A DNA stretch of 41,530 nt from Gemmobacter nectariphilus (lineage in GTDB: Bacteria > Pseudomonadota > Alphaproteobacteria > Rhodobacterales > Rhodobacteraceae). The DNA is taken from contig DYMU01000023.1 in the NCBI GenBank assembly GCA_020721445.1, positions 1 through 41,530 on the forward strand. Direction: 5' to 3'. Both the position numbers and the translations under genes were made by a program. Below the pieces are notes generated by a model, which was given only the letters and a program-made list of their open reading frames with translations, was not told the origin of the DNA and did not search any database. This document shows positions 2,789-6,073 of this stretch, piece after piece. How positions within the stretch are numbered: the first letter of the stretch is position 1; the number at the start of each line of letters is the position of its first letter.

Positions 2789-3919
2789 ATGCGCACCCGT
2801 GCCGCCGTCGCCCTTGCCGCAGGCCAGCCCCTTACCGTGATGGAGGTCAATCTGGCCGACCCCAAAGAAGGTGAGGTTCTGGTCGAGATCAAGGCCACCG
2901 GCATCTGCCACACCGATGAATTCACCCTGTCGGGGGCCGACCCCGAAGGCCTGTTCCCCGCCATCCTGGGGCATGAGGGCGCGGGCATCGTCATCGCCGT
3001 TGGCCCCGGTGTCAAAAGCCTGAAACCCGGCGACCACGTCATCCCGCTCTATACCCCCGAATGCCGCCAGTGCCCGTCCTGCCTCAGCCAGAAAACCAAC
3101 CTCTGCACCGCGATCCGCGCGACCCAAGGCCAAGGCCTGCTGCCCGACGGCACCACCCGGTTTTCCATGCTCGATGGCACGCCGATCTATCACTACATGG
3201 GCTGTTCCACCTTCGCCAACCACACCGTCGTGCCGGAAATCGCGCTGGCAAAGGTCCGCGACGACGCGCCTTTCGACAAGATCTGCTATATCGGCTGCGG
3301 CGTCACCACCGGCATCGGTGCCGTGATCAACACCGCCAAGGTGGAAATCGGGGCCAAGGCCGTGGTCTTTGGCCTGGGCGGTATCGGGCTGAACGTGATC
3401 CAGGGCCTGCGCCTTGCCGGGGCCGACATGATCATCGGGGTCGACATCAACAACGACAAGCGCGAATGGGGCGAACGCTTTGGCATGACCCATTTCGTCA
3501 ACCCGCGAGAGATTGACGGCCCCATCGTCCCGCACCTTGTCAACCTGACCAAAACCCCGTTCGACCAGATCGGCGGCGCGGATTACTCGTTTGACTGCAC
3601 CGGCAACGTGCAGGTGATGCGCGACGCGTTGGAATGCACCCACCGCGGTTGGGGGGTGTCGGTCGTCATCGGCGTCGCCCCCTCCGGCGCCGAAATCCAG
3701 ACCCGCCCGTTCCAACTGGTGACAGGCCGCATCTGGAAAGGCACCGCCTTTGGCGGCGCAAGGGGCCGCACCGACGTGCCGGGCATCGTCGACTGGTACA
3801 TGAACGGCAAGATCGAAATCGACCCGATGATCACCCATATTTTGTCGCTGGACGAGATCAACAAGGGGTTCGAGTTGATGCGGTCGGGCGAGAGCATTCG
3901 GTCGGTGGTGGTGTATTGA
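2789..3919 (+). CDS. frmA: S-(hydroxymethyl)glutathione dehydrogenase / class III alcohol dehydrogenase
   Basis: 376 aa, usual length. It oxidises S-hydroxymethylglutathione to S-formylglutathione with NAD+ in glutathione-dependent formaldehyde detoxification (called adhI or flhA in Rhodobacter and Paracoccus). Catalytic zinc ligands C40 (GICHTDEF), H62-E63 and C170 are present, as are the structural zinc cysteines 92, 95, 98 and 106 and the Rossmann motif GLGGIG (195-200). The start at 2789 is set by AGGAG at 2776-2780; an in-frame extension to 2585 is overlapped by the upstream gene and does not look like protein. The usual partner, S-formylglutathione hydrolase, does not follow. An AT-rich ATPase gene follows instead, possibly marking an insertion at the frmA 3' end. 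Confidence 0.96.
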   Translation: MRTRAAVALAAGQPLTVMEVNLADPKEGEVLVEIKATGICHTDEFTLSGADPEGLFPAILGHEGAGIVIAVGPGVKSLKPGDHVIPLYTPECRQCPSCLSQKTNLCTAIRATQGQGLLPDGTTRFSMLDGTPIYHYMGCSTFANHTVVPEIALAKVRDDAPFDKICYIGCGVTTGIGAVINTAKVEIGAKAVVFGLGGIGLNVIQGLRLAGADMIIGVDINNDKREWGERFGMTHFVNPREIDGPIVPHLVNLTKTPFDQIGGADYSFDCTGNVQVMRDALECTHRGWGVSVVIGVAPSGAEIQTRPFQLVTGRIWKGTAFGGARGRTDVPGIVDWYMNGKIEIDPMITHILSLDEINKGFELMRSGESIRSVVVY

Positions 3920-3983
3920 GGGGGGGAGACAGCTATTATCCACATGATCCAAATTTTGACCCGAGAAAGCTGGAGTTCTGAAC

Positions 3984-5273
3984 ATGGCAGACTTTGTTTA
4001 TGATGTGTTTGTCCCAAATGGCACTCCAACGCATACTTACGTAACGCGCCCTACAGAGAAGAATGAAGAGAAGCTGGCAGCCGGCTTAGAGATGCCAAAA
4101 ATGGTGATTTCCGTGTCTGGTCCATCAAAAACTGGAAAGACGGCACTTATTGATACTTGCATTACTTCAGATCGAATTATTCCAGTTTCTGGCCAGTCAT
4201 TGCGATCAGCGAACGAACTATGGCAGGCAGTAATGCGATGGATCGGTGGACCCGAGGAAATCGACAGAATAAAAAGTCGAGTTCTAAAAGGCGATACTGC
4301 GATGAAACTAAGTGGGGAAGTTGGAGTAATTTTAGCGAAAGCTCAAGTGGAGGGAGAAGTAAATGCCGGCGTAGAGATTACAAACCAAGTATCTGAAAAG
4401 TATGGCGTTGAGTTCTTTGAGGCCGTGGTCAAGGAGCTTAGTGGAAGCAGCTTTGTAGTATTCTTAGATGACTTCCATTACATTTCAAAGGATGCGCAGA
4501 TTGATATCGCTAAATCAATCAAAGCGATTTCAGAGCGTGGTGTTCGTATCTGCATTGCATCAGTGCCACACAAATCAGACGATATGGTGAGGGCAAATGA
4601 TGAGCTTACCGGTCGCATTGTCTCAGTTCTCTTCAACTATTGGACGGTTCAAGAGCTAGAAGTCATAGCGACGGCGGGATTTGGCGCTTTGGGTGTGGAT
4701 ATAGCTCCGTCAATTATACGACAACTTGCAACTGAAGCACTTGGCTCACCGCAGCTCATGCAATCTTTGTGCTTGAATCTGTGTTTAGAGAAAAAGATCA
4801 GATCCAAACAAAACTTAGAGTCCAGAACGGAGGTTTCAGTATCTGAATTAAGGGCTGCAATTGAAAGAACGACTCTGCAAACGGACTACTCAAGAACTGC
4901 TGAAAAGCTGCATACTGGAGCAAAGGAGCGAGGAACACAGAGGAAAGAATTCAACTTTAACGATGGTTCAAGTGGGGATGTCTATCGAGCCGTTTTGCTC
5001 GCTCTTGTTAAAAACCCGCCTAGACTCACATTTGACTATGATGAGATAATGAGTCGAATCAGATCAATCTGTGCAACTGAAACTCCTGCAGGATCAAGCG
5101 TGCAACTTGCTTTGAAGCAGATGGATGGGATCGCGCACGATATAAATCGGGAGTCTCCAGTCTGGGAATGGGATGATGACAAGCTTGAAATTACCAATCC
5201 ATACTTTATGTTCTATCTGCGTTCGTCAAATAAGATAGCTCAAATAAATAAGAATAAACTAGGAATGGTTTAG
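3984..5273 (+). CDS. AT-rich orphan P-loop ATPase (AAA/STAND-like), probably acquired
   Basis: 429 aa, function unknown. A short N-terminal strip contains HTYVTRP (17-23), resembling the TYVxR segment found just before the P-loop in AAA_35/STAND-like ATPases. Next come Walker A GPSKTGKTA (46-54), a Gly-rich amphipathic stretch (108-135), Walker B VVFLDDFHY (158-166) and a sensor-1-like strand RICIASVPH (188-196). A helical lid with GSPQL (254-258) follows, then a C-terminal part that looks like a winged helix (about 335-415, ending WEWDDDKLEITNPYFMFYLR), as in ATPase_2-type proteins. No effector, nuclease or transmembrane domain is visible. GGAG precedes ATG 3984. Sampled lines are roughly 42-52% GC, far below the neighbours, and codon use is AT-ending, which suggests horizontal transfer as a single cargo gene. 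A defence or regulatory role is possible but unproven. Confidence 0.8.
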   Translation: MADFVYDVFVPNGTPTHTYVTRPTEKNEEKLAAGLEMPKMVISVSGPSKTGKTALIDTCITSDRIIPVSGQSLRSANELWQAVMRWIGGPEEIDRIKSRVLKGDTAMKLSGEVGVILAKAQVEGEVNAGVEITNQVSEKYGVEFFEAVVKELSGSSFVVFLDDFHYISKDAQIDIAKSIKAISERGVRICIASVPHKSDDMVRANDELTGRIVSVLFNYWTVQELEVIATAGFGALGVDIAPSIIRQLATEALGSPQLMQSLCLNLCLEKKIRSKQNLESRTEVSVSELRAAIERTTLQTDYSRTAEKLHTGAKERGTQRKEFNFNDGSSGDVYRAVLLALVKNPPRLTFDYDEIMSRIRSICATETPAGSSVQLALKQMDGIAHDINRESPVWEWDDDKLEITNPYFMFYLRSSNKIAQINKNKLGMV

Positions 5274-5376
5274 CTGCCAAGAGGTAATTTTATAAGACTA
5301 ACTTAATAACTCCACAAAGCTTAACAAACCCTTAACTCCACACCCCTAACCCCTTGAAAACAAACAACTCAAATCC

Positions 5377-5393
5377 TGTCCCACAGTGGGACA
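5377..5393. promoter_or_regulatory. Perfect palindrome upstream of L,D-transpeptidase gene
   Basis: TGTCCCAC-A-GTGGGACA is an 8-bp perfect inverted repeat with a 1-nt centre. It lies about 115 bp before the transpeptidase start, near the point where base composition returns to GC-rich. It could be an operator or a mark of the island edge. No regulator can be named. Confidence 0.4.
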
Positions 5394-5506
5394 ACCCTCT
5401 CCCCCGCCCTCACCAAATCGTGACTCCCCCACCCCCCATCGTGAGTTGCGATCCGCCGGCCTTTCCGCGACCTTGACCCCCAAGCAGTCAAGAAAAAGGA
5501 ACCCCC

Positions 5507-6073
5507 ATGACCCATCTCCCCCGCCGCGGCTTTCTGGCCGGGACTGGCGCCTTTGCGGCCGCCCTCGCCGCCCCGTCGCTCTTGCGGGCCCAGACCACCG
5601 AAGGCGGCGCCCGCAACAACGTCTCCAGCTTCCGGATGCAGGCGTGGCAGGATCATTTCGACCAGTTGGGGCAAGGCGTGATCCTGGCCGACACCATCTC
5701 GCGCGCCGTGCATTTCTGGTCGGCCGATGGCAGCGATTACCGGATGTGGCCGTCGTCGGTGCCCTTGTCCGAAGACCTGACCCGGCGTGGCATGACCGAG
5801 GTGATCCGCAAGGTCGAAGGCCCGACCTGGCGCCCGACGCCCTCGATGCGCGAACGTGACCCCTCGCTGCCCGAGGTGATTCCCGCCGGCCCCACCAACC
5901 CGCTTGGCACCCACGCGCTGTATCTGTCGTGGCAATATTACCGGGTGCATGGCACGCATGACACCCGCAAGATCGGCCGCAAATCATCGGATGGTTGTGT
6001 GGGCCTCTATAACGAACACATCGCCGAGTTGTATCCGCTGGCAAAAGTCGGCATGCAGGTGAAGTTGATCTGA
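5507..6073 (+). CDS. L,D-transpeptidase (YkuD domain), Tat-exported
   Basis: 188 aa. It is a periplasmic peptidoglycan enzyme of the YkuD family, which forms 3-3 cross-links or attaches proteins to meso-DAP. The N-terminus LPRRGFLAGTGAFAAALAAP carries a twin-arginine signal (RRGFL at 6-10) and probably ends near LLRAQ (25-29). The catalytic domain is C-terminal: H149 in VHGTHD and nucleophile C164 in SSDGCVG, matching the family's HGT...S-x-GC pattern. AAGGA precedes ATG 5507. Its promoter lies in the 233-bp gap after the acquired ATPase. The precise reaction cannot be read from the sequence. Confidence 0.92.
   Translation: MTHLPRRGFLAGTGAFAAALAAPSLLRAQTTEGGARNNVSSFRMQAWQDHFDQLGQGVILADTISRAVHFWSADGSDYRMWPSSVPLSEDLTRRGMTEVIRKVEGPTWRPTPSMRERDPSLPEVIPAGPTNPLGTHALYLSWQYYRVHGTHDTRKIGRKSSDGCVGLYNEHIAELYPLAKVGMQVKLI

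Follow-up and report, generated by a model that had tools for sequence, protein, structure and literature searches.

The 429-residue AAA+ ATPase gene of Gemmobacter nectariphilus described here (positions 3984 to 5273, forward strand, delimited from the ORF list, a profile match and composition) is probably an anti-phage cargo of PDC-S59 type that consists of this one gene and was acquired by horizontal transfer; we infer its role in defence. It lies within a 41,530-nucleotide stretch of contig DYMU01000023.1 (hereafter the window), between two host genes on the same strand that were assigned by Pfam: frmA, encoding a zinc alcohol dehydrogenase (2789 to 3919), and an L,D-transpeptidase (YkuD) gene (5507 to 6073).

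The gene is of foreign origin. Its GC content is 0.44 and its GC3 0.40, as against a GC3 of 0.79-0.85 in six other genes of the window and a mean GC of 0.638 (sd 0.026, minimum 0.578) in 750 overlapping stretches of the same length outside the gene, which places it at z -7.6. The AT-rich tract continues past the gene to about 5380-5400, so that both the AT-rich frame and the AT-rich downstream flank to about 5380 are present as an earlier, sequence-only reading of this DNA had described them. The gene starts 64 bp beyond the frmA stop, and a putative ribosome-binding site, GGAG (3972 to 3975, forward strand), can be read 8 nt before the ATG. The left end of the foreign segment lies directly after the frmA stop, where the same reading had placed the insertion, in TGAGGGGGGGA, which is also found in G015, a near relative; on the right, the segment ends before a CGTGA...CATCGTGA tract common to two congeners, G002 and G005. 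Because the left and right flanks match G015 and G002/G005, respectively, the foreign piece is taken to span approximately 3931 to 5407. Near its right end is a palindrome, TGTCCCACAGTGGGACA (5377 to 5393), with one central mismatch and one exact copy genome-wide. A mobile element with defined ends was looked for and not found, as the ORF alone is common to the window and its relatives; beyond the ORF, upstream DNA is common to the homologous loci L005 and L007 over 229 bp and to L008 over about 100 bp. As claimed earlier, no transposase or integrase is seen beside the gene, nor is a prophage or defence island seen around this copy.

The frmA/L,D-transpeptidase interval, which had been proposed for comparison, is variable within the genus. 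The frmA search covered 16 genomes of the genus, including that of the window, and the sequence downstream of the frmA orthologue was read in 15 (among the frmA loci, L041 reaches the contig end after 254 bases and L052 has a partial frmA). The gene following frmA is of tRNA_edit type in 5/15 (G002, G005, G006, G010, G013), an NYN gene in 4/15 (G001, G003, G009, G011) and the ATPase in 1/15 (the window), with other content in the remaining 5/15 (G004, G008, G012, G014, G015); these labels were given by reading, and one gene of each named type, tRNA_edit and NYN, was examined with Pfam. The gene order in G002 and G005 is frmA, tRNA_edit, L,D-transpeptidase, and the window ATPase takes the place of the host tRNA-editing-domain gene found in these two congeners. 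S-formylglutathione hydrolase, which the sequence-only reading had expected after frmA, is seen there in none of the 15 genus genomes read and was dropped as the displaced gene, since congeners have a tRNA_edit gene in that place. A tRNA_edit orthologue was not found in the window's genome, an empty answer that is weak because the search had no positive control. The transpeptidase of G015 (L033/L016, G015:C16) is 94% identical, with a match that starts only at residue 52; it adjoins an apparent glycosyltransferase gene, frmA of this genome is on another contig, and the spot seems to be rearranged in G015 too.

A close copy of the ATPase is present only in its own genome among the 195 searched (own included), and two further matches are distant (20-44% local identity). 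The class-level search with alignment A1 gave matches in 6/385 genomes, with E <1e-30 in the window's own and two others, and phylum-level searches gave 15/398 genomes with alignment A5 and 43/398, mostly partial-domain matches, with the TIR alignment. One scan of genome contigs returned eight loci related to the window ATPase: four, from the alphaproteobacteria Maliponia, Oricola, Acidocella and Thalassobaculum, encode proteins that are 74-78% identical over the full length; a fifth, in a Rhodobacter MAG, is a partial copy (residues 1-220) close to the end of its contig; and the three remaining loci show 37-41% identity. The neighbours of these homologues are a B12-binding gene (L005), pseudouridine synthase and OmpA genes (L008), a transposase (L007), and a phage integrase with an HNH gene (L006). 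Such identity across orders, combined with differing neighbours, points to spread by horizontal transfer. At L012:1971-6018, in an alphaproteobacterial MAG, a 41%-identical homologue is flanked by succinate dehydrogenase flavoprotein and iron-sulphur genes, an arrangement that may be either an operon insertion or a fault of MAG assembly. Together with the window, L005, L008 and L012 make four chromosomal loci at which the ATPase stands alone among household genes. The patchy distribution, along with the prophage and plasmid homologues described below, supports the earlier notion of a lone, horizontally acquired cargo ATPase.

The gene might instead be an inert passenger, intact only through recent acquisition. 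It is indeed lone, AT-rich and situated just past the frmA stop, and no match to a sigma-70-like promoter was found upstream of it. However, the frame is full-length, the ATPase residues are invariant, and dN is well under dS across homologues that are 70-81% identical in DNA: among five close homologues, dN is 0.085-0.217 per region and dS 0.73-1.63 where computable (2-6/10 pairs per region, so that dS is poorly defined). Purifying selection on the ATPase is supported by these comparisons, and an inert gene is quite unlikely.

The protein shows the features of an AAA+ ATPase, as both Walker motifs are intact and conserved. Walker A comprises G46-T53 (GPSKTGKT; codons 4119 to 4142, forward strand) and Walker B comprises V158-D163 (VVFLDD; codons 4455 to 4472, forward strand), both identified by motif reading and alignment A3, close to the positions named in the sequence-only reading. 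All 37 rows of this alignment have the same residue at G46, G51, K52, D162 and D163, and also at R211, a candidate arginine finger by analogy with Orc-type proteins. The AlphaFold2 model built on the 37-row alignment (mean pLDDT 81, pTM 0.75) has pLDDT <50 at residues 90-95, 98-135 and 427-429 and is confident in the core outside an insert before Walker B; a Foldseek search of the PDB places archaeal Cdc6/Orc and PABY2304 at the top (E 6e-8 to 1.3e-7). Owing to this confident core and these matches, the model fits an Orc/Cdc6-like AAA+ ATPase with a lid and a winged-helix part, in line with the lid and winged-helix-like C-terminus proposed earlier; the C-terminal linker and winged-helix-like part would occupy residues 301-429 (4884 to 5270, forward strand), judging from model secondary structure and the Orc/Cdc6 matches. 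The archaeal Cdc6/Orc1 and PABY2304-type ATPases (1fnn, 2qen, 1w5s) share the AAA+ core, lid and winged helix with the window protein, but the TM-score by query is only 0.43-0.45 and the identity 11-14%, and they are not phage cargo. No Pfam or NCBIfam model matches the window protein at its cut-off, and the close copy is confined to one genome; neither a characterised housekeeping family nor a gene common to all close relatives, either of which would have refuted the earlier reading, was encountered. The AAA_35/STAND assignment made earlier was abandoned, AAA_35 scoring 12.4 bits against a gathering cut-off of 27, with the other four Pfam matches also under theirs. Pfam gave no match to a TIR domain in this protein, and PHROG 6841, which has no assigned function, matches it weakly (42.8 bits).

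The PADLOC profile PDC-S59 (PDLC05049), which comes without a curated cut-off, matches residues 10-318 of the 429 with 98 bits (E 1.3e-28) and also matches all nine homologues scanned (46-645 bits). By this profile match, the window protein is a diverged member of PDC-S59, a PADLOC single-gene phage-defence candidate; it resembles the family in being encoded by a single gene of the same length class, but the match does not extend to its C-terminal 111 residues, and it represents a divergent branch, whereas P0004, P0009 and P0010 score 592-645 bits. PADLOC phage defence candidates are described in passages of PMC11514479, and the PDC label designates a candidate only. No experiment on any member of the family was found in the literature searched, including by profile name and by the accession of one member. 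The single-gene defence cargo proposed in the sequence-only reading is partly supported, by the candidate profile and by the prophage and plasmid homologues.

More distant relatives occur on plasmids. Searching plasmids with the window protein returned 14 records; P0004 as query returned 11, some of them among those 14, and the TIR-fused P0002 five. In the phage collection, the window protein matched a single record, and neither P0003 nor the L118 protein matched any. Eleven plasmid neighbourhoods of non-TIR relatives were fetched, eight of them annotated; restriction, abortive-infection or toxin-antitoxin genes occur in four of the eight (a raw count) and no evident defence gene in the other four. 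Reading of the neighbourhoods found no gene common to unrelated household loci that could be a conserved partner. A small ORF after the Bradyrhizobium L009 gene, without a Pfam match, was considered and set aside, as it is seen in two Bradyrhizobium loci only. The recurrent neighbours at viral loci are, by PHROGs, tail, lysis, connector and packaging genes (7/8 proteins scanned). The neighbourhoods thus show no partner, which is not to say that the ATPase acts alone. On a Selenomonas plasmid (L058:7217-9129), the homologue that lacks the insert faces two genes, one for a second AAA ATPase and one for Fic.

Relatives are also found in viral contigs. Three scans of these gave 34, 30 and 16 loci, the last 16 TIR-fused (80 in all); five of them are without a readable gene (L090, L112, L116, L121, L135), and the 75 used comprise 59 non-TIR and 16 TIR-fused loci, near-duplicates included. 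With seven P2 proteins as markers, a P2-type portal gene is no more than 1.5 kb away from 14/75 copies, and gpV or gpS no more than 1.2 kb away from 17/75; of the others, one has P2 genes further away and 43 have none of the seven markers. Thus, 31 of the 75 copies occupy one or other of two P2-prophage cargo sites. Annotated E. coli genomes illustrate each of them. APEC IMT5155 has the gene between the replication endonuclease and the portal; in PSS-08-1 it is flanked by gpV and by a gpS-like gene for virion morphogenesis and runs antisense to the late genes, an orientation that suggests its own expression in the lysogen. The portal-site type is found in 11/5426 E. coli genomes and relatives of the gpV/gpS-site type in 4/5426. 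The portal site is the gpA-gpQ place, a published hotspot at which several anti-phage systems have been validated (PMC9122126), and the main-text passages of that paper on the hotspot name no member of this family. Among the 59 non-TIR viral homologues, GC is more than 2 points below the flanks in 58 and above in one (mean difference 12 points); low GC is therefore a trait of the family.

These positions bear on a further explanation, namely that the ATPase maintains or regulates a prophage or plasmid, its winged helix binding DNA in the manner of Orc/Cdc6 and serving the replication, transcription or copy control of the former carrier. The closest folds are Cdc6/Orc initiators, and relatives are carried by plasmids and phages, as this explanation would have it. 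However, the viral copies at the two P2 sites occupy accessory cargo slots rather than replication modules, the gene is alone at the four chromosomal household loci, and the sister clade has a TIR domain. A maintenance or regulatory role is consequently unlikely, and an anti-phage cargo is preferred.

A sister clade has a fused TIR domain. A C-terminal TIR_2 domain scores above cut-off in 5/5 TIR-fused relatives tested, from the clade that includes P0002. These proteins (TIR_2 plus AAA; e.g., L138-L141, L146-L161) share with the window clade the order of ATPase, lid and winged helix, and they occupy the same two P2-prophage sites as its kin, with L159 at the portal and L147, L148, L150, L153 and L161 at gpV/gpS (6/31 loci at the two sites, L161 being a near-copy of L150). 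They differ in the C-terminal TIR and in a short Walker A-B spacer, which measures 43-52 residues in 21 TIR-fused sequences as against 83-116 in 75 non-TIR sequences, of which 58 are at 106, 108 or 109 (this set differs from the 75 viral loci, as it combines rows from the window, genomes, plasmids and viral contigs, near-duplicates among them). By a slightly different ruler, the spacer is 42 in 5/5 TIR rows (P0002 included) versus 81-114; two further non-TIR members have spacers of 91 and 114, and the Selenomonas L058 protein has 65 and no TIR. In a midpoint-rooted tree of 50 rows with flagged long branches, a single branch (98/92) separates the insert rows, L058 within their clade, from all others, and another (100/96) does the same for the TIR rows. 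The insert/TIR contrast thus appears to have arisen once, as far as these data show, and repeated effector swapping between insert and TIR was rejected because the tree needs only one change per label.

Since the prophage cargo sites hold both TIR and insert forms, the protein could also be a phage-encoded exclusion or counter-defence protein that helps the prophage encoding it to withstand competitors or host systems, and not general host defence. The lone chromosomal copies without a prophage and the plasmid copies that adjoin restriction systems argue against this, and we consider it very unlikely. At the gpV/gpS site, TIR-fused genes are sense to the late genes in 5/5 cases and insert-type genes antisense in 11/12 (L073 is sense), a strand contrast that may reflect different expression. 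On a Pantoea plasmid (L141:4995-11227), two further TIR genes and a CBASS phospholipase come after the TIR-fused relative, and on a Curtobacterium plasmid (L139:4986-8430) such a relative has a caspase-family gene and one more TIR gene nearby.

The insert of the window clade precedes Walker B (residues 95-140, 4266 to 4403, forward strand; delimited from alignments, with pLDDT <50 over most of it), has a hydrophobic centre, GVILAK, and is roughly 45 residues long, with a near-fixed length and no counterpart in the TIR-fused clade. It is for the most part less well conserved than the stretches on either side: the share of the commonest residue is 0.37-0.47 in the insert, compared with 0.46-0.62 before and 0.36-0.63 after it; in the 109-residue group the stretch after the insert is no better conserved than the insert itself. 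Among the five close homologues, mean identity is 67% in the insert and 77-86% elsewhere. The insert is rich in Gly, Ser, Thr, Ala and Lys, is nearly devoid of Tyr and Trp, and shows alternating polar and nonpolar tracts. Tested against column permutations in four length groups of 11, 17, 10 and 5 non-redundant rows, the alternation of hydrophobicity gives p 0.011, 0.001, 0.033 and 0.003 (window size 11) and p 0.001-0.046 over window sizes 9, 11 and 13; under a cruder grouping, p is 0.02 and 0.16. This pattern is consistent with two amphipathic strands that flank a hydrophobic tip. A simple beta-hairpin is weakened by the model of the homologue L110 (mean pLDDT 85), which has strands and a helix in the insert (block pLDDT 61-78); the window model is disordered there. 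The insert is missing in Selenomonas L058 without any gain of TIR, which makes it dispensable for some members.

In KAP P-loop NTPases, a segment between Walker A and B may contact the membrane, and KAP inserts are hydrophobic transmembrane helices. The window-clade insert is placed likewise between Walker A and Walker B, but has the Gly/Ser/Thr/Ala/Lys-rich composition described above instead of such helices. By extension, the ATPase could be a one-protein abortive-infection machine, in which the length-fixed amphipathic insert would be a membrane-active element, ringed ATPases would form a pore or breach the inner membrane, and the insert would stand in for the TIR of the sister clade. We offer membrane action as conjecture because of the L110 model, the near absence of Tyr and Trp and the insert-less L058, and the scheme as a whole is rather improbable.

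A more general scheme can be proposed for the anti-phage cargo. It starts from what is observed, i.e., ancestry, foreign origin, intact motifs, prophage and plasmid carriage of relatives, and sites held in common with the TIR clade; defence, trigger, assembly and output are what we infer. The resting ATPase would bind nucleotide until a phage-derived signal, perhaps sensed via the winged-helix part, triggers ATP-dependent self-assembly, and the assembly would then stop the phage or the infected cell. The output in the sister clade would be the fused TIR domain, and in the window clade the insert before Walker B is the sole candidate module seen.

The analysis turns a listed, apparently uncharacterised defence candidate into a testable pair of sister ATPases, of which the first has a TIR output and the second the insert only; because both occur at the same prophage cargo slots, a direct test of the role of the insert is possible. 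It also reveals a bare single-gene cargo in household loci, including, in one MAG (L012), a place between succinate dehydrogenase genes, and since the gene stands bare in such loci, neighbourhood-based searches for defence islands would miss this ATPase.
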